Assembly: GCA_026826555.1 (NCBI GenBank)
Contig: JAKSZT010000142.1
Span: forward strand, 2,481,298 to 2,545,297
Direction of reading: 5' to 3'
DNA from: Tolypeutes matacus
Lineage: Eukaryota; Chordata; Mammalia; Cingulata; Chlamyphoridae
DNA length: 64,000 bases
In this document: piece by piece, positions 6,841-33,772 of the stretch
How positions within the stretch are numbered: position 1 is the first letter of the stretch
How the letters are laid out: each line of letters begins with the position of its first letter
The notes under the pieces: generated by a model
Seen by the model: only the letters and a program-made list of their open reading frames with translations
What the model was told of the DNA's origin: nothing
The model's database searches: none
Program-made: the position numbers and the translations under genes

Positions 6841-7030
6841 TTTTTTTTTTTTTTTTTAAAGATTTTTATTTATTTATTCATTTATCCCCCCCTTGCTGCT
6901 TGTGCTCGCTGGGTCAGCTAACCACGCCGTGCGGGCGGGCTTTGCCTTCACCAGGAGGCCCCGGGAACCGAACCCAGGGCCTCCCATATGGTAAACGGGA
7001 GCCCTACTGATTGAGCCACAGCCGCTTCCC
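6841..7030 (-). mobile_element. DAS-type tRNA-Ala-derived SINE
   Basis: Read on the minus strand, it begins GGGGAAGCGGCTGTGGCTCA, carries a pol III A box in TGGCTCAATCAG and a B box in the GGTTCGGTTCC position, then a GC-rich body with CCTCCTGGTG. It ends in an ATAAATAAATAA tail plus a long A-run (seen as T-run at 6841-6857). DAS elements are known from Dasypus. It is the same family as 29998-30158. Perfect flanking repeats make it young. Confidence 0.9.
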
Positions 7031-7045
7031 CTTTTATAGGTTCTT

Positions 7046-9284
7046 ATGTCATGAAAGACTTGACAAACACATTGGTCGTGAAGATATTCTCTATATTGTT
7101 ATATCAACATAACCTATTTCTTAGTTTCAGACTATATGACAGAGAATCTGGGAGTTGGGAGGACAAGGGGAATGGGTAGTTTCAGATGTGGCTGTCAGTC
7201 TTCTTAGATTACTAAGAAGTACAGGGAACTCAGATTCTAATGATTTCTGTCTGGGATTTTTGTTCTTAAAATTGTTTAGTTATGATCCACTTTTTTCTAG
7301 GTGACAATGGGGACTTCAAGCTGAGATTCTTATGGGATTCTTTTTTTGTTGAATCTTATTACATCTTTGGAAAGTGTGTTCGGCTGTATATCTTTATAAA
7401 TACAACCACAGTTCCATTGTGACAAAGGAACTGTATAGAATGATGAAAACAAAGATTGTTCATACATCACTCTCTGTGTAAAAAAAAAATTATCCTGAAA
7501 AGAAAAATGAAATAATTAAAAAGAATAATTATTTTTGGTTACAAAGTAAATTTAGGAAAAAATGTAGGGCATGTGAGGAATATAAAGGAAGCTAGAAAAC
7601 CTAGAAAATATAAATATGTGTGGCTAATATTTTTAATAAGTATAATGTAATGTGATAAAATACTAAAAACTATTGAAACTTTGAAAGTACCAATAAGTTC
7701 AAAATATATAGGAAATAAAACATTAATATACACAATATAAAACAATTTCCTACCTGTTTTTTAAGGTAGCCACACAAAATTTAGAAAATTTATGTAAATG
7801 AATAGGCAATTTACAGAAGAGTAATTCAAAATAACACATAAACATATGTGGATGATTGCATAATCAGTAGTCAGGAAACTGGCAAAAAAACAATGTTATA
7901 TCACTTTCTACCCATCTGGAAGACAAACTTTGAAAAAGAGCTAAAACACTCTTTTCTGATGAGGATACCAAGAAAAGTATAATCAAGCTTTTATTGATTT
8001 TTTTAAAGGAATCTGATTCTATCCATTAAAATGAAAAAGATCTACCCTATGGAAATTACTATGATGGTAATTTATAACATGGAAATCAAAATATTAGAAT
8101 ATGGAAATATATGTATACACACTCTGCTAGTAACCTCTTTCGGTGTCCAAAAAGGATGGGGGTGGCAGGGCAAAGTAAATGTACTTTTACAAAGGATTGT
8201 TAGAATATAACATGTTACATTTATATCAAGGTATTTTACAGCTATTAAAAAAGGAAATCATTAATGTATCTATTGACCTTGAAGAACATCAATGGTATAA
8301 TGCTAAATGAGAAAAAGGAATTTCTATAAAATACACTAGGCATTATGGCACTTCTTCTTCTTGCAGGATCATAAAAATGACTTAACATTACGTTGTTAAC
8401 ATTGATTTATTTCTATGAATCAAAAATTTATTTTGTAAAATAATATATTTATAACATGTGCAATATAAAAGCATTTAGGTTATGAAATGTGAAGCACCCC
8501 AGTCTATACTAGGCATGATTCCTGCCTTCAAGTATTTTAACTTCTGGGGGGAATTCTGCTCCTAACTCAAGAACTTAAATCAAGGCATGCTATAACACAT
8601 TCTAGAATTATACAAGCCACCAATGATGGGACACAGAGAGATTGATTAGACTGGAGATATCAGAGAAGGCCTCGTATAACAGGTGAGACTTGAGGCTTTC
8701 AGGAGATTTTGCAAATACATTCCAATTGATGATTTTGTTTTTTGCAAAGATGGTTACTGCAAATAATCTTAAAGCAGATTTCATTTGTTATGAGAAAAAG
8801 TCAACTTTTATAGATCAACCATAATCAATAGGAAAACAACAACAATATGTTTCCATATAGATTTTCAAGTGGATGAAATATGTCTTTCTCATTAGAAAGA
8901 AGAGATGTTAATAAGTTGAAGAGGAGGAGCAACTTCTTTATCAGATATGAGAAATATATTAATAATATGTTCTTCCTTTTTCTATTCACAAGGCCTATAA
9001 CTCGCCTCAATCAAAGAACTATTGAAAGGTTATTAATGGAGAAAAAGAAAGAAAAGGAAATGTCAGAAGGCCATGATGAAGTGGCCTTTCAAGGCCATCC
9101 TGTCTGGAGGGCTTAATGTTAGACCAGCAGAAGGGAGCTGTTCTTAAGGTTTTCTGCCTGTTCAAAGTTTGCTTCTTCATTAATGTTCATATTAAACTTT
9201 CTTATGTGTAATTGTGTCATCGCTCAATGATTAGTATTTATTCATAAGCAATATAAGACAAACTGGAATTGAACAGTTTGGAAG
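7046..9284. other. AT-rich intergenic DNA, no supported gene
   Basis: Unique-looking and strongly AT-rich. A stretch near 8510-8700 (GATTCCTGCCTTCAAGTA, then GAGAAGGCCTCGTATAACAGGTGA) reads like a very old interspersed repeat of the kind often next to MIR or L2, but I cannot assign it. Short open frames at 8825-9116 overlap on both strands and look like chance. Confidence 0.4.
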
Positions 9285-20702: not shown

Positions 20703-21102
20703 NNNNNNNNNNNNNNNNNNNNNNNNNNNNNNNNNNNNNNNNNNNNNNNNNNNNNNNNNNNNNNNNNNNNNNNNNNNNNNNNNNNNNNNNNNNNNNNNNN
20801 NNNNNNNNNNNNNNNNNNNNNNNNNNNNNNNNNNNNNNNNNNNNNNNNNNNNNNNNNNNNNNNNNNNNNNNNNNNNNNNNNNNNNNNNNNNNNNNNNNNN
20901 NNNNNNNNNNNNNNNNNNNNNNNNNNNNNNNNNNNNNNNNNNNNNNNNNNNNNNNNNNNNNNNNNNNNNNNNNNNNNNNNNNNNNNNNNNNNNNNNNNNN
21001 NNNNNNNNNNNNNNNNNNNNNNNNNNNNNNNNNNNNNNNNNNNNNNNNNNNNNNNNNNNNNNNNNNNNNNNNNNNNNNNNNNNNNNNNNNNNNNNNNNNN
21101 NN
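20703..21102. other. Assembly gap, 400 N
   Basis: Run of exactly 400 N inside the L1-B 3' UTR. The open frames that appear to cross it are artefacts. Sibling copies have about 1.25-1.28 kb between the same flanks (16483-17740 in L1-A; 60840-62117 in L1-D). Confidence 0.98.
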
Positions 21103-25968: not shown

Positions 25969-26315
25969 TTTACCGTGATGGGTTTATTCGGTTGATTAGC
26001 TTCTCTCTCTGCTCTAGAGTTTTATTTAGCTGGTGGTTCTGTGTGTGTGTTAAGTTTTCTCTTTTACACTTTTTCTTCTTATTTTATTTCCTTGCTTCTT
26101 TCTATGTTCCCTTGAAGGCAAAAGATTAGGGCCAGAGTAATCAAAAGATGTGAGAAAGGAAGAAGGACAATAGTAATATTGATAGAAGTTAGAAAAGAGG
26201 CTATATTAATGAAATGAATATTTAGCTCAGGTAGGCAGTGTAGAGTAATAGGAAAAAAAATGAAATACCTGCAATGGACTGAGAAACCAAATAGAGGATT
26301 ATATATATAAGGATT
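25969..26315 (-). mobile_element. L1 5' UTR, ORF1-proximal part
   Basis: Non-coding leader between ORF1 and the provirus. It aligns with L1-C at 47640-47980, sharing GCTTCTCTxTCTxCTCTA, GTGTGTGTGT and CTATGTTCCCTTGAA. It is interrupted at 26315 by the provirus and resumes at 33773. Confidence 0.8.
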
Positions 26316-26707
26316 TGTTGTAAATCAACATGGAGGTAGTCGGTGCCGGGAATGATCCAAAGAAAGTTTGGGATCAGGGGACCTCACTCCATTTGGAATG
26401 CAGGCAAATTTATTTAGGGTGAAGCTGCTTTTTATACTACAAAGCTGATAACAAAAGTAGGGCATCCTTTGCTAGTTCCTCTGCAGGGCACGTAAGAGCA
26501 CTGCCGGTTCCTGTATCTCCAGATAATTTTTCTTAGGAATTTATGCAATAACTACTTAGTGGTGGGTTCATTCCGCTCTGCTTCCTCCCATTGACGTCTG
26601 CAGTGTGCAGAGTCCTTGGAGACATTTGCTAATGTTTCTTTTCCAGCAAGCATACTTTTTTAGATGCTTAACCCTTTATGCTCTGGCTCTCAGCATCTTT
26701 TCCAACA
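26316..26707 (-). repeat. 3' LTR of provirus
   Basis: Begins (minus strand) TGTTGG and ends TTACAACA, so the termini are TG..CA. Inside, a TATAAAAA box (26429-26436) and an AATAAA signal (26409-26414) lie unusually close together. A TGACGTC cAMP-response-type motif sits near 26592. Confidence 0.93.
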
Positions 26708-26730
26708 ATTCCCCTTTTTTTGTTTTTGTC
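26708..26730 (-). promoter_or_regulatory. Polypurine tract (plus-strand primer)
   Basis: The minus strand reads ACAAAAACAAAAAAAGGGG then AAT directly before the 3' LTR TGTTGG. This is the expected place and composition for a retroviral polypurine tract. An almost identical copy lies at 28717-28738. Confidence 0.9.
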
Positions 26731-28471
26731 CAGGGTGACTGTGCCTGTCTTAGGTTGCCCTCCTTTGAAGGTCTTACCCGTATCTGGCCACCAGCTAAGC
26801 TCCATGGACAGGGGTCTTGAGAGTTAAGGGTTTTAAGCATAATCAAGTTATTGGCATGGCTGGCCTTTTCAGCCCTATTAACGCGGGGCAGCAGGGCTTT
26901 GTGAATGTCTCCTAATACATTTAAGAGTAGCAGAGCACCAATGATCACCACACTGATGTTAGCAAGTACAGAGGTTGATTTCCACCAATGTAAGGGGTTT
27001 ATTTTATTCTATTGATCTGTCACTGATTGCCAAAATTCGCTACCTGGAAGCGTAGAGAGTTGATTCTGAGACATGCTCAAAATCCTTTTTTGCAAATCTG
27101 TAATTTCTATAGATAAATTTGTGTGATGACCTATTAAATGATTTTTAATTTTTTCCCATTCATAATCAGAGTCACTGTATGGGAGAGGAGTGATACAAAA
27201 AGCACTTTCATTCCAATCACACTTCAAACCTTGTTTTAAATTAGATTATATACTTGATCTCCCATTTGTGTAATAGCCATCTCTAAGTCATTAAGCCTGT
27301 TGTTAATTTGCTCATATATATATGCTTGACTATGCCACAGCTCACTAGCATTATGATGCCAATTTTTAACATATTGTTGCGTTTGAACATTTTCATGTAG
27401 AGCAGTTCCTGCTGCAGCAGCAGCTGTAATAATACCTATAAGCCCTAATACAGCAGCAATAATTAATCCAATCAAACGTTTGGTTCTTTTCTCATAATGA
27501 TCTAGCAAGTGCCAAAGGATTTGGCTCTCAGGGGAAGACTGCCAGCAACGATTCAGGCGAACCAGAAGCCATATTCCATGATGCCGTCATCCTATTAGAA
27601 CCACAGTAGAATTTTCCTGTATACTTTGATATGCAAGTATAAAGGTAACAATTGCTGCAGAAAAATCATGTTTCATTAATGTTCACTGTTCCTACTATAA
27701 AAACAATGGGATCTTGTACACATACTTTAAGAAATTAAGTGGATTTTCTTTTTTTTTTAAACTGGTAATTTTAGTTTTACTTCCTTGCCATCCAAAAATT
27801 GGGCTAGTTCCCAAAAATAATTTCCACAAATAATTTTTAGTTTTGTTAAGTTTAGTGTCCCATAGTTGTGGGATAAATCTTCCCTGATGAATCCAATTTA
27901 GTGACATATTTATACTTATGACATCCCCAAAATTCCAAATATAATGATAGCTTACATTAGTTGTTTTTGTTGAATTACTAATTTTTCAACTTATGGTTGT
28001 TTTTATATTAGGGCCCAATTCATTACAATTCCATAGGAATTATTAAAGAGCACAACCTCATATGAAACATGGCATGTATGCCATTTATCACTTTGTACTA
28101 TGATTTGGGGACTGTATACATGGATTGATGGATTCTATGCAGGGAGGTCATTCAAGAAAATGCAAGGTTAAATTTTTAATAAATTTCCCTTCCTCCTCAG
28201 GTTTTAGAAGAAGGCAAAAATCAACGGGTCCAGGAAAATGAAAAGACTAATTAATATAAACAGGTTAGGATTTGTCCCCCCAAGTTAACAATTCTAAAAG
28301 AGGTGAATTAGTAATATAAGCCCAATATGTATAATTATGTGAAGTTGCACTACTTACTACTGTGGTTGTCTAGGTAAGCATAGCAAAATATAACTGTGTT
28401 AGAGTGACATTCTGACTTTTAGAAGTTACCATCTTTTCTGCATCTTGTGTCAGTTTCTTCAGCTTATTCAT
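26731..28471 (-). pseudogene. Endogenous retrovirus env (SU and TM), broken
   Basis: Endogenous betaretroviral envelope remnant. The frame opens with ATG at 28469-28471 (MNKLKKLTQDAEKM). The SU start carries NYTYWAY and WGD motifs and is interrupted by at least four in-frame stops before 28100. The SU/TM boundary has a furin-type RTKR site near 27480, followed by a hydrophobic, Ala/Gly/Ile-rich fusion-peptide-like stretch (27236-27508). The TM ectodomain continues after a frameshift near 27235 with CDWN and CITP motifs (27009-27227). A stop then precedes the membrane anchor (around 26880-26950), and a tail runs into the LTR. In a virus, Env mediates receptor binding and fusion; this copy cannot make the protein. 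Confidence 0.88.
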
Positions 28472-28716
28472 GTCTAGGTTTCAGACGTCTGGACAGGATC
28501 CAAAGCTGGTCTCCTTTATATGTAATGATAAGAGCAAAACCTTGACCCTATATCCTAACTTAACTTCTGCCTTCTCCTATTTATTATTATCTTTATGCTT
28601 TCAATAAACTAGTTGTCTAATATTTGTTTTTGTATTTTTGCCTGATTTTTGCCAGAAATGCTCTAAAAAATTTATTGTAAATAATGCTTAAGATAATTGT
28701 TCTCGCACCTCACCAT

Positions 28717-28738
28717 TTCCCCCTTTTTTTGTTTTTGT
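28717..28738 (-). promoter_or_regulatory. Second polypurine-tract-like sequence, upstream of env
   Basis: The minus strand has ACAAAAACAAAAAAAGGGG plus one more G, then AA. It matches the 3' polypurine tract over about 21 bases with a single extra G. It lies about 245 bases upstream of the env start, at the edge of the AT-rich middle. It could be a central polypurine tract or a scar of a template switch. Confidence 0.6.
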
Positions 28739-29137
28739 AGTATTTATAAATAGAGGTTTAACTGTTAATTTTTTAATGATAAGTATACATACATTCACAG
28801 GCTTACTAAATCAGGGGATACACTGAAATGCTTGGCTTATTTTTGGCTAGAGTCTTGGATAGATACAAGATAAATGTTAATATATATATATATTTAGTTT
28901 AATAAGCTTATACTGACAATTAGAGTGAGAAATATAAATAATATAATCAATGAAGTTTAAGTTAATATTGAACAAAGTTACAGAATGACAGATAAATAGA
29001 GCAGTTTTATATATATATACTTACCAATATTTAGCTTTTAGCTGGGAAGTGTTGAATCAGTAACTGATATTAGAGTTTTGGTTTAGGATTAATGAATTTG
29101 ATACTATAGATGCCAACTTGTGAGTATTTTGCTAGTT

Positions 29138-29243
29138 CCTGAGGAAGGGGCCAGCCTCCTCAGGAAGGAACACAACACTCCCTGGGCAGTACATTTTAAG
29201 GTTTATGCATCAATCCCTGGGAGAGTGGCCAGCTCCCCCAGGG
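29138..29243. other. Pair of similar short hairpins
   Basis: First arm pair: CCTGAGGA with TCCTCAGG (29138-29164). Second: CCCTGGG with CCCAGGG (29215-29243). Both have GGCCAGC in the loop region and both are followed by AGGAAxACAACA. They look like a diverged tandem duplication of one stem-loop. A 12-bp palindrome (CAACAGCTGTTG) follows at about 29251. Confidence 0.6.
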
Positions 29244-29980
29244 AGGAATACAACAGCTGTTGAAATGCACTTTATTATTATTATTTTTTGATTTGTTACA
29301 AAACATCCTTGATGTGCTTATTATTTTAAATTTCAATATGCTTCCTGAAATATGAAAAGTGTTAACTAGTAAGGTATTGGTTTGTTGATCAACAGTTTTC
29401 TACATGATGCTTTACTTTTAGACTTGAACAATACTTACCAAACTTTTTCTTAATACATTCAGTTTCAGGACTGTTTAAATTTAAAACAAGAGATTTATAT
29501 ATATATGTTTAATAAAATACCTCTATGTATAATATACAAATTATTAAATCACTTAAGTATGCAATGTATTGTACTGAAGTTTTGATTAGTAGGTAAGTAT
29601 ATCATACATAATTCATAACTACAGTAGATTATATAACAACAGACAGTAATAAGAATTTTAACCAGCAGACAGCCAATGAATAAACTTTTATTTTTTAAGC
29701 ATTTAAGATTCTTAGTAGAATGACCTCAATTTTTTATTTTGTATAGTTTGAGGCATAGGTGAAAACAAATTAGTATTTCCTATTTGAGCTGTGGGGTAAT
29801 ACATTAACTTGTAATTTTAATACTTGCATTGGTTTTGTTGTTAACATTATAATTATATTTGGGGCTGTTGCTTACTGTGTTGAATATAAACTTGATTTAT
29901 TGTTGGCTATTTTACAGGAAGGGGAATGTGGGCTGGCTTGACTTGTTTGAGAAAATATTAAAGAAAGCTTTAGCAAGTTT

Positions 29981-30175
29981 TAAAACAAAGTGATAGTAGG
30001 AAGCGGCTGTGGCTCAATCAGGAGGGCTCCCGTTTGCCATATGGGAGGCCCCGGGTTCGGTTCCTGGGGCCTCCTGGTGGGGGCAGGCCCGCCCGCACGG
30101 TGTGGTTGGCTGACCCGGCAAGCGCAAGCAGCAAGGGGGGGATAAATGAATAAATAAATAAAACAAAGTGATAGT
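29981..30175 (+). mobile_element. DAS-type SINE with target-site duplications
   Basis: The SINE body is 29998-30158: GAAGCGGCTGTGGCTCAATC start, A box, B box in GGGTTCGGTTCC, GC-rich body, ATAAATGAATAAATAAATA tail. Perfect 17-bp flanks, TAAAACAAAGTGATAGT, lie at 29981-29997 and 30159-30175. It inserted after the provirus did, and opposite to it. Confidence 0.95.
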
Positions 30176-31920
30176 GACGTAACTGGATATTAATTTTTTG
30201 CAATAAACTAGCAATATTTGGGACCACTGCATGTTGCAGTGTGTTATTTTATTTTATTATATTTTACTGTTAGCACTACCCTGGAAGCCTTTAACGACTG
30301 CTTTCTTTTTGTTGTTACAACTAAAAATTTTGATTAATAACATTATATTTTATTTAATATTATATTGTAACATTATTATAGTTTCAGGAATCTTATACAC
30401 TTTTAAAGTATTCATATGAACTTTTTATTCATATGACTTTAATTGTTATAAAATTAGAAAATTTCTTTTAATTATACAACAGTTTTAAATACTTCATTTA
30501 ACTTATATCACATGAACTTAACTATTTTTAGTATTTTACCTTTTTTTTTTTAGGTAAAAGACCAAATTATTTGTAACAATTTGAAATAAAAGCTACTCTT
30601 CAGAATTTGACTTAGAAAGCAGGTTTGAACACTGTATTCTTTTTAAAAGTGATAAGACCTGTTTCTCCATGGAAACGATAAGGTTAAAGTACAAGAAGCT
30701 ATTTTGATAAAACAGACTTTCTTTATTGCATACTGATAATTTAGGAGAAAAACTTTGTAAATTTTTACTAAAACAGACTACTGACTTGAGAAACTTTGAG
30801 AAAGAATAAAACTTTAACTTTATGTTATTATATTATTTAACATTAAAGCTTTAAATTTTTTATAGATAGACTATTTAAATTTTACTTAGCTTTGACCACA
30901 AAAATTCCTTTTTCACAAGCCTTTTGCACTTTTATATTTATTCAGGGTTTCATTTTACTTTGTTTTAATAACTAGTTATTTTATCTTAGGATAAAATTAC
31001 TTTCTTTTCTTTAATAATAAAAGCACATTCTATATACCTTCCATACTCAAGTTACCACAATGATTTTGGAAACTATTTCCAAGCAAACTTCTGACAACAT
31101 ATAATTACCATCAACATTAAACAAACTTGTTAGAATAATGGTTTAATTTGAGTATAACTATTTTTATTATTTTAAACTAATATCCATATTTATTTATTAA
31201 TATAAGCACTTATTCAATTTTTGGCCATTTGAATATAGATCTTATAATAATTTTAATTTATTAAAATTTAATATTACCATCCGGAGGTATCAAAATATAG
31301 GCTGACACTGAACAAACAGACAAATACAAAAAGAATTATGACCCACTAACAGAAACATAAAGCTTACTAATTTGACCCATAATTTTCACTCCTTTGTTAT
31401 GGCTGTCTTCAAGCCCTCCATCATTTCACATCTTTGATTTTACTGTTTTTAAGATTTTTTCTGGAATCTGTGTTACCTGTAATATATAAGCTTGTTTTTT
31501 GAAACATTTTTGTTCATAATCAGCAACCAGCCAGGACAACTTAAACAGCATAAATAAAATTAAGCTCGAATTTATCAGTTTACACAGATATTTAACACAT
31601 TTTTTTTTGGATTATTACTATTTAGGAGTACACTTAGGCTCAAAGTTCAGGAATAAGCTAGTGATTTAAAACTGAAAGTTCCTTTTAACACCTTAATAAA
31701 AATTATGCACTAATTTTATCAATTTGGCCACACTGGCCCAACCAGAATCAGTATGGAAACAAAACAGAAAACACCAATGTTGCCAAGTTTTCCTACTCTT
31801 CCAGTGGTTTAATTCTATTAACCCCTATCATCCCACAGCCTTGTCATTATGTAGGCAGTAGGAGGTTTACAAAGTTGCTGGAATGTTTTCTTTATCTTAG
31901 TTAACTTTTTTTTTGGCAGA

Positions 31921-33227
31921 ATAGTGATGCTCTTGTAACTGATGCTAGGTTTTCCTAATATTAATCTCACTAAATATTTTGGAATAGGCATTTCTTTAAG
32001 ATTAGGTTGAGTTACTGTCTTTTTTACTACATCTGCCAGCCTCGCTACAAATTCAACATAGGTTTCAGTATTTCCTTGAACAATTTTTGAAAATGCTTGT
32101 ACAGCCTGTCCAAGGGTGGAGATTGGTCACCAGGCAGCTAGGCAGCACAATCAAACTTTTACAATGGCAAAATCATCATATTGAGCTTGGTGAGGAATCC
32201 CAGCCCATTGACCTGTTCCTAATATTTGTTCAGCAGTAATAAGTACTGGTGAATTTTGCTGTTGATTTTGTCGTGCTACAATATTAGCTTCATCAGCCCA
32301 CCATGCTTTAAATTGTAAAAATTCTGCTGAATTAAGAATAGCCTGAGCTAACAAATCCCAGTCCCAGGGTATTAATCTGCTTGCTTGTGACATTTCTTGC
32401 ACCAATTCTTGAGTATAAGGAGAATTTATATCATATTGAGTGCATGTTTGTTTTAATTTTTTGATAGTTTTAAAAGGAATAGGAGCATGATTATATTGTA
32501 CACCCCCTTGGGGATTGTTAGCATCTACTGGAATTTGAGTTACTGTTACTGGAAAAGTAAAATAAAATTGCATAACCTCTGAATTTCCTTCTTTACTTCC
32601 CTGTGCTATACTTTTCATAATTGAAGAGGATGGTGCTGGCACAAAAACAGAAACTTCTGGAGGGTCATCAAATGTTGTAAAAAATGGATCAGTAGATATC
32701 TTAGGAGGCACAGACACTGGTTCAAAAGACAATAAATAATCTTTTGGAGTGGACGGCTTAACGACTACTGGAAAAGTTCCATAAACTCCCTTTTTCTTTA
32801 TTTTCTTTTTATTAGATGTAAGTTTATCTGTTTTTGCCTGTTCAAAAATTTTTTCATATATATTTACATTAAAATCATCATTAGCTTGTTCTCCTACAGT
32901 TTTAACAATAGCAGTATCCATTTTAATATCTTTATTTTCATCTGACTGTAATGGTTCAAGAGCAACAGAAATAAGAATATACAAAGACCATACTTGAAGA
33001 GGAACTGTTTCCTCTTTTTGATAAGCTCATTGCAATGATTTCATTACTAGTTTCCATTGTTTCAAATTTAACACATTCTGCCCTTGCGGCTGAAACCAAT
33101 AACAATGTTTATGTACAAGAGAAAAGAGTTCTAGTGACTCGTGGGTCATCACAGATACCCCTGTACTCTTTAACAGGGTCTTCAAAACTTCGGAATATTC
33201 CTCTAATTGAGTCAACTGATTACCCAT
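31921..33227 (-). pseudogene. Endogenous retrovirus gag (MA to CA), broken
   Basis: The start at 33227 is chosen because MGNQLTQLEEY gives a glycine at position 2, as in myristoylated matrix proteins; the longer frame from 33257 begins within the leader. MA reads to an in-frame TGA at about 33026-33028, and the same frame goes on through a lysine-rich and proline-rich middle (32151-32984) into capsid, with FPVTVTQIPVD and NSPYTQELVQEM. The frame changes between about 32110 and 32150. The major homology region follows near 32040-32100 (Q-G-N-T-E-T-Y-V-x-F-V-x-R-L). After about 31920 nothing like nucleocapsid zinc knuckles is found. In a virus, Gag assembles the particle; this one is disrupted. 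Confidence 0.88.
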
Positions 33228-33251
33228 TACCCTGACAATCAAGATTATTTG

Positions 33252-33258
33252 ACTCACC
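33252..33258 (-). promoter_or_regulatory. Leader splice donor, probable
   Basis: The minus strand has AAAAG/GTGAGT between the primer binding site and the gag start. It is a strong donor match in the place where the donor for spliced env RNA is expected. Confidence 0.6.
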
Positions 33259-33355
33259 TTTTAAGATTCAAGGACCGTCCGACCCAGCAACAACAACAGT
33301 CCTTACTTCCAGGGCACTGATCCAGAGAAAAAGACCATGAGAAAAGACTAGTCGA

Positions 33356-33373
33356 GCCCCACATTGGGCTCCA
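33356..33373 (-). promoter_or_regulatory. Primer binding site, tRNA-Lys type
   Basis: TGGAGCCCAATGTGGGGC, two bases after the 5' LTR end. It matches the complement of the 3' end of tRNA-Lys1,2 at 16 of 18 positions. Lysine tRNA priming is typical of HERV-K-like betaretroviruses. Confidence 0.9.
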
Positions 33374-33375
33374 TC

Positions 33376-33766
33376 TGTTGTAAATCAACGTGGAGGTAGA
33401 TAGTGCCGGGAATGATCCAAAGAAAGTTTGGGATCAGGGGACCTCACTCCATGTGGAATGCAGGCAAATTTATTTAGGGTGAAGCTGCTTTTTATACTAC
33501 AAAGCTGATAACAAAAGTAGGGCATCCTTTGCTAGTTCCTCTGCATGTCACGTAAGAGCACTGCTGTTTCCTGTATCTCCAGATAATTTTTCTTAGGAAT
33601 TTATGCAATAACTACTTAGTGGTGGGTTCATTCCGCTCTGCTTCCTCCCATTGACGTCTGCAGTTGCAGAGTCCTTGGAGACATTTGCTAATGTTTCTTT
33701 TCCAGCAAGCATACTTTTTAAGATGCTTAACCCTTTATGCTCTGGCTCTCAGCATCTTCTCCAACA
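33376..33766 (-). repeat. 5' LTR of provirus
   Basis: Mate of the LTR at 26316-26707, with the same TG..CA ends. TATAAAAA is at 33489-33496 and AATAAA at 33469-33474. The differences by eye are 11 substitutions and one single-base indel. Confidence 0.93.
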
Positions 33767-33772
33767 ATGATT

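Follow-up and report, generated by a model that had tools for sequence, protein, structure and literature searches.

A pol-replacing block present in two endogenous retrovirus families of the armadillo Tolypeutes matacus

The usual view of endogenous retroviruses without pol is that they are spoiled forms of a single virus family. According to the excerpted text of PMC10924933, a central segment has been exchanged for a piece of an old retroelement, with the flanks retained, in cattle, mouse, and koala. Here we describe a class II (ERVK/betaretrovirus-like) provirus on the minus strand, at positions 26316–33766, of a 64,000-nt stretch of the genome of the armadillo Tolypeutes matacus (assembly GCA_026826555.1, contig JAKSZT010000142.1, positions 2,481,298–2,545,297; hereafter the window, whose positions serve as our coordinates). 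We call its family F1 and a second family, with the same AT-rich middle or module, F2; L-numbers denote other loci of the same genome. We consider it very likely that the window element belongs to a multicopy, non-autonomous class II family whose block is also present in F2, that F1 was mobilized in trans, and that the block was moved by recombination.

F1 fits a known kind of pol-less element (ETn/MusD, bovine ERVK C/D), and the koala KoRV, which is class I, offers a further comparison. With the bovine ERVK[2-1-LTR] D-type, which has C-type helpers, F1 has in common a long terminal repeat (LTR) as in the pol-bearing form, a swapped middle, and kept gag and env flanks, and the bovine C/D forms and F1 are both class II with recombination between forms (PMC10924933, in excerpt). 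The bovine swap is described in that excerpt within one clade, whereas here the block is also found in F2, which differs in its gag start, Env class, and LTR and has an inverted U3 fragment. As to activity, when compared with bovine ERVK C/D, F1 and F2 are known here from sequence alone. The mouse ETn is likewise a non-autonomous class II element mobilized by a coding relative, but the excerpted text of PMC6466679 describes it as having no coding capacity, whereas F1 gag was probably open in its source, and ETn mobilization by MusD was shown experimentally, whereas for F1 we infer it. The koala recKoRV/KoRV-A pair and F1 both have a middle swapped with an older retroelement and kept flanks (excerpts of PMC10924933 and PMC10536682); the recKoRV partner is PhER, a known donor, unlike the F1 module (PMC10536682, in excerpt). 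F2, with beta-type gag and gamma-type Env, may resemble a chimeric betaretrovirus with an ASCT2-using Env reported from the nine-banded armadillo (Malicorne 2016, as cited in the excerpt of PMC10536682), the host being an armadillo in both cases.

The transfer of the block across families is the new part, and a search of the open literature, covering open papers only, did not turn up any reported case of two families sharing a single pol-replacing block. The sharing of the middle with F2 also lay beyond the reach of an earlier note on this DNA, which dealt with the window alone. The same block occupies two distinct families at matching gag and integrase points and so shows how working viruses can become hitchhikers; for F2, a pol-bearing relative is available to compare it with.

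We searched the genome with 1001 bases of the module (best 40 of 2706 candidates), with gag (best 40 of 1701), and with the LTR (best 40 of 2446). The module piece was present at 85%–97% identity in all 40 scored candidates, self included, and each of the 20 loci that we fetched lay within a provirus, 11 of them F1 and nine F2. The F2 loci have their own gag, a gamma-type Env, and their own LTR, and they share with the window element only a gag/module stretch (28712–32217, minus strand), with aligned pieces at 90%–95% identity. The low breakpoint was 28712 in 9/9 loci and the high breakpoint 32217 in six of nine (L014, L021, L025, L026, L027, and L028). An F2 variant, L037, also starts at 32217; its module runs to 29008 and is followed by 153 integrase residues, an earlier integrase junction. 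Scanned pieces of L014 and L026 matched the Pfam families Gag_p10 (3.5e-27), Gag_p24 (2.5e-27), and TLV_coat (5.1e-52), and their integrase ends were recognized as well (6.9e-7 in L014 and 3.1e-12 in L026). F2 LTRs are ∼500 bp long; the two pairs that were measured have Kimura two-parameter (K2P) distances of 0.019 and 0.027, and 6-bp flank duplications by eye. Two F2 copies (L018 and L028) are apparently inserted in F1-type elements bearing nucleocapsid (NC), near the junction of gag end and module.

Using the integrase end as query (best 40 of 76), we found two pol-bearing F2 relatives, L038 and L039; L040 is the gag side of the L038 element, and junctions were tested with uncut query pieces. 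In all six F2 copies tested, the match to L040 (88%–92%) ends 14 bases inside the shared segment, and the match to L038 (87%–94%) resumes ∼22 bases before the segment's end. A capsid C-domain and a zinc knuckle of its own are present in L040, in which the window-type capsid end found no match better than E 0.1. Approximately 4.0 kb of the pol-bearing F2 form has been replaced by a 3.35-kb F1 segment. The L014 Env is 78% like that of L041. As the pol-bearing F2 relative matches up to the breakpoint, has its own capsid end and pol, and matches again in integrase, the most likely course is a transfer of the block from F1 to F2 by recombination. At both ends the overlaps are short, which would fit template switching: F1 RNA may have been co-packaged with F2 RNA, and two switches at short stretches of likeness could have carried the block into F2.

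We regard it as unlikely that the block went from F2 to F1, or that both received it from a third element. Module likeness is about the same within families as between them (96.3% identity within F2, 94.4% within F1, and 94.3% between), and the module tree, which left out L027 and L034–L037, is nearly star-like, with one branch (local support 0.89) splitting 10 F1 from eight F2 sequences. The F2 block, however, includes an F1-type capsid end that has no counterpart in the pol-bearing F2 relative and that, in F1, continues the gag reading. Moreover, F1 has a second junction type with NC (L031 and L034–L036), while 9/9 F2 loci are of the window type.

In this second type, a gag end with NC is joined to the module at window position 31650 in L031, L034, and L035, and L036 shows the same join as far as read (the last 101 bases of the gag end). 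The window type has instead a 329-bp piece (31651–31979, minus strand) in the position that the rest of capsid and NC hold in the L031-type relatives, and was seen in seven of the 11 first-fetched F1 loci, in 9/9 F2 loci (L022 in part), and in L037. We tried this piece as a decayed capsid/NC end and rejected it (score 28 against a shuffle mean of 29.7, reached by 68/100 shuffles). Because the loci of the second type join an NC-bearing gag end to the same middle, loss of the gag end was probably a step of its own. The earlier note had proposed that pol and the end of gag were replaced; a middle without pol in a multicopy family agrees with the first part, and the NC in L031, L034, and L035 speaks against a joint loss.

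The F1 genome is a mosaic in other places too. Relative to L044, which has the same LTR, the window element is 91.6% identical in the LTR, 90.5% in the leader, and 89.7% at the matrix start, and the leader and gag start (32985–33375, minus strand) are at 85%–92% identity. Past ∼32985, gag identity to L044 falls to 64%–76% per 100 bases, and six other copies break from L044 at the same place (L010 33 bases earlier); the gag body from ∼32985 is a divergent segment itself. The end of the transmembrane subunit (TM) and the sequence before the 3′ LTR are 93%–94% identical to L045 and L046.

F2 also carries a second F1 sequence. In the LTRs of seven of nine F2 loci (L014, L018, L021, L022, L026, L028, and the 3′ LTR of L017), an inverted F1 U3 fragment (F1 LTR positions 4/11–260, 78%–82% identity) lies between two parts of the LTR of the pol-bearing form; the L014 LTRs with this piece are at 8353–8851 and 705–1198 in L014 coordinates. 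The fragment is broken up in one LTR each of L021 and L026, and the LTRs of L025 and L027 have no inverted U3 fragment. The F1 LTR itself found no match in the LTR of L040. Positions 93–172 of the pol-bearing form's LTR are retained in L017 and L018 and are missing from the other five, which suggests that the U3 fragment was inserted first and the deletion made later. Reading F2 as an inverted copy of the block, on the grounds that the LTR matched in reverse, was rejected: gag and env pieces show the block in sense orientation, and only the U3 fragment is inverted.

The middle of the window element is ∼3.1 kb of AT-rich DNA between 31979 and 28712, and contains the module proper (28712–31650, minus strand; 2.76 kb without a private insertion and one copy of its duplication). 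That insertion is a short interspersed element (SINE) of ∼161 bp (29998–30158, minus strand), flanked by perfect 17-bp duplications (29981–29997 and 30159–30175), so that 178 bp of the middle (29998–30175) are SINE plus one duplication copy. A second copy of the SINE lies at 6864–7029 of the window (92% identity). Since the 17-bp site is single in 25/25 other module-bearing loci (two mismatches allowed), the SINE insertion is private to the window copy and later.

No protease, reverse transcriptase, or integrase core is detectable in the element, and of pol it keeps a decayed remnant of the integrase C-terminal region (28480–28760, minus strand), just upstream of env. A translated search of the middle gave no Pol profile match: 10 minus-strand pieces had no Pfam match to Pol, and 74 pieces from the window, L019, and L031 (at least 30 residues on the window minus strand, at least 40 on its plus strand, and at least 32 on the minus strand of L019 and L031) gave no retroviral match up to E 0.05. 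Three weak, unrelated Pfam hits turned up among the 74. With Pol of L029 and L030 from the same genome, tblastn gave nothing below E 0.5 in the window element, and in four F2 copies the same queries matched the integrase end (E 1e-24 to 1e-31). In L013, one tblastn Pol hit (E 0.022) fell outside the element. Rfam gave nothing at gathering thresholds. Frameshift-tolerant alignments of the module to Pol, compared with dinucleotide-shuffled DNA, showed no consistent excess, and the earlier note's description of an AT-rich middle without a pol motif thus held under Pfam, tblastn, and shuffle-controlled alignment alike.

That the middle represents pro-pol of the element itself, made unrecognizable by decay in a lineage with no need of it, is in our judgment quite improbable. 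The module is placed between the gag end and the integrase remnant and is fairly close to pro-pol in length. Some scores also lean this way: the first module half (modA) scored 42 with L030 Pol (reached by 0/25 shuffles) and 40 with L029 Pol (2/25), these being two high values among six on the sense strand; a score of 35 (3/40) came from the 329-bp piece aligned with the first of the F1-type pol pieces; and low-stringency blastn placed a 115-bp stretch of modB on L039 (62.6%, E 4.9e-4). Yet antisense controls were equally high (44 for modA with L030, and 42 and 39, reached by 1/40 shuffles each, in the comparisons with F1-type pieces and F2 integrase), modA and modB showed no excess against pro and pol pieces of the closer F1 type (lowest 8/40 shuffles), and the L039 stretch was not seen in L038. 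Against F2 integrase, the lowest value for modA and modB was 5/40; reversed-sequence controls in the low-stringency blastn produced hits down to E 0.008; and at the DNA level the module had no match at E 1e-5 in L042, L043, or L044.

The alignment method does recover pol where it is present. As a positive control, L030 pol DNA scored 213–468 against the F1-type pol pieces, and the integrase remnant of L031 scored 67, where shuffles averaged 32 and reached 42 at most (0/60; 52 and 1/60 with the other Pol query). In the window copy the remnant is weak (35, reached by 4/60 shuffles; 20/60 with the other query). With an integrase remnant still readable in L031, and with a GC content of 0.43 in the neighboring gag end of L031 versus 0.25–0.31 in the module, an equally old reverse transcriptase should be readable too, and after tblastn, shuffle-controlled frameshift-tolerant alignment, and low-stringency blastn we rejected decayed pol as the likeliest reading. 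At the module end, a purine tract (∼28718–28745) closely resembles the element's 3′ polypurine tract; it is located where the pol-bearing form encodes integrase, at the F2 recombination point, and its stretch aligns with L038 over 41 bp (75.6%, E 0.016–0.039).

The 11 F1 loci carry the window's 3′ LTR, TM, surface subunit (SU), and module in identical order, so that the middle is not private to the window, the earlier note having called for other copies with the same LTR and middle. Six of them (L010, L011, L013, L019, L020, and L023) are LTR-to-LTR copies with the window's arrangement, although L011 has an internal deletion near the capsid end. The 5′ part is missing from L009 and L012, and the sequences of L015, L016, and L024 break off in N. 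Eight F1 LTR pairs (the six fetched copies, L031, and the window) had K2P distances of 0.0104, 0.0241, 0.0286, 0.0287, 0.0288, 0.0345, 0.0424, and 0.0579. Each of these eight copies sits at its own site, with flank duplications that differ per copy (exact 6 bp in L013 and L031; 5 bp, or 6 bp with one mismatch, in the others). The six fetched LTR-to-LTR copies, with their separate flanks, amount to many independent insertions of the pol-less form.

Spread by segmental duplication or L1 processing, and not by retroviral integration, could account for the copies without a 5′ part (L009 and L012) and for some F2 copies being nested in other elements; it is highly improbable given LTR-to-LTR copies with separate 5- to 6-bp duplications, printed 3′ flanks that are not poly-A, and separate flanks in all eight copies measured. 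A private deletion or insertion at the window locus alone, to which only the SINE answers, is refuted by the module in all 40 scored candidates and by the window's order of 3′ LTR, env, and module at 11 of the 20 fetched loci.

Lack of pol together with many insertions points to mobilization of F1 in trans, in which pol-bearing relatives would have supplied the proteins to package, reverse transcribe, and integrate F1 RNAs. Such relatives in the same genome are candidate helpers. Among the best 150 of 1578 candidates in a search with the integrase C-terminal region, all pass Pfam's cut-off and many lie in frames of several hundred residues; among the best 150 of 3161 in a TM search, some Env frames are open for as many as 614 residues (two larger listed values were set aside). 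Upstream of an F1-type env, L043 encodes RVP, dUTPase, RVT_1, RNase_H, Integrase_Zn, and rve (Pfam and tblastn), and L042 has pro-pol in the same position (tblastn). L045 and L046, two further loci from the TM search, have LTRs at 90.8%–91.6% identity to the window LTR, next to an F1-type TM. L044 combines the same LTR with a 626-residue gag frame and is plainly a deleted form that has kept the integrase end and lost nearly all of pol. Two of the 150 integrase matches fall in F2 loci (L017 and L027); comparing the lists by eye only, we saw none of the gag, LTR, or NC matches lying within 10 kb of an integrase match. Viral contigs yielded no gag relative.

Several points weigh against the reading of F1 as a trans-mobilized family whose block moved by recombination. 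For the candidate F1 helper, pol comes from one set of copies (L042/L043) and the LTR from another (L045/L046). The gag-side breakpoint in F2 is not uniform, with L018 sharing gag further up (to 32592) and L017 and L022 sharing less. Several flank duplications carry mismatches, and our copy totals, drawn from the best 40 per DNA search, are lower bounds, which we counted on this side. Lastly, mobilization in trans was not observed: the earlier note's non-autonomous, helper-reliant element is supported by the missing pol and the many insertions, with the pol-bearing relatives as candidate helpers, while the mobilization itself is what we infer.

It is conceivable, if doubtful, that the AT-rich block acts as a hopping cassette of helper dependence, favoring packaging or reverse transcription of the RNAs that carry it. 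If so, it would spread by recombination and turn successive pol-bearing families into parasites, and the donor U3 that joined F2 in inverted orientation would have changed where the chimera is transcribed. The two families make a question testable, namely whether a swapped middle is passive filler or holds a cis signal by which an RNA becomes a better passenger.

Gag and env differ in how they have fared. The window gag matches Gag_p10 (3.9e-9; matrix, 33030–33227), Gag_p24 (3.4e-30; gag body including the capsid N-terminal domain, 32151–33023), and Gag_p24_C (1.2e-6; start of the capsid C-terminal domain with the major homology region, 31980–32126), all on the minus strand, so gag is readable as far as the major homology region, as had been noted before; a matrix and capsid of beta type are a class II feature. 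The Gag_p24_C match spans 37 of 74 profile positions, and the open frame continues to 31821. The in-frame stop in matrix (33027–33029) is private to the window copy (0/7 comparable copies), that at 32151–32153 is seen in 1/7, and the remaining matrix–capsid stops are scattered, with one site common to 3/8 copies. In SU (27590–28480, minus strand), stops in the window frame are common to the copies: 28150 in 14/14, 28060 in 13/13, and 27697 and 27694 in 13/13. Scattered or private stops in the one and common stops in the other indicate that, in the F1 source, gag was probably open and SU was already broken. The TM (27012–27586, minus strand) matches GP41 at 2.5e-8 and 2.3e-5 (the second below Pfam's cut-off), and four SU pieces had no Pfam match; the previous description of env as readable applies to the GP41-type TM and fails for SU. 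A gag that was probably open beside a long-broken SU is relevant to the question of which viral genes are kept in an element that depends on a helper.

The remaining landmarks of the provirus largely bear out the earlier note, which did not state the minus-strand orientation that all of them share. The 5′ LTR (33376–33766; 391 bp, TG...CA) and 3′ LTR (26316–26707; 392 bp) differ by 11 mismatches and one gap column, or 2.8% against the ∼3% first given, and have a K2P distance of 0.0287. With 2.2e-9 per site and year as the neutral rate, an age of ∼6.5 million years would follow for the window copy. The flanks AATCAT (33767–33772, 5′ side) and AATCCT (26310–26315, 3′ side) form the expected 6-bp duplication with a single mismatch. 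Directly after the 5′ LTR comes TGGAGCCCAATGTGGGGC (33356–33373), a candidate lysine-type primer binding site whose letters match, by eye, what we take to be the lysine-tRNA consensus. A splice-donor-like AAG/GTGAGT (33252–33260, by eye) and a polypurine tract ahead of the 3′ LTR (about 26708–26730, with the purine run at ∼26711–26730), both listed in the earlier note, are present as well. Finally, we noted a run of 400 N at 20703–21102 of the window.

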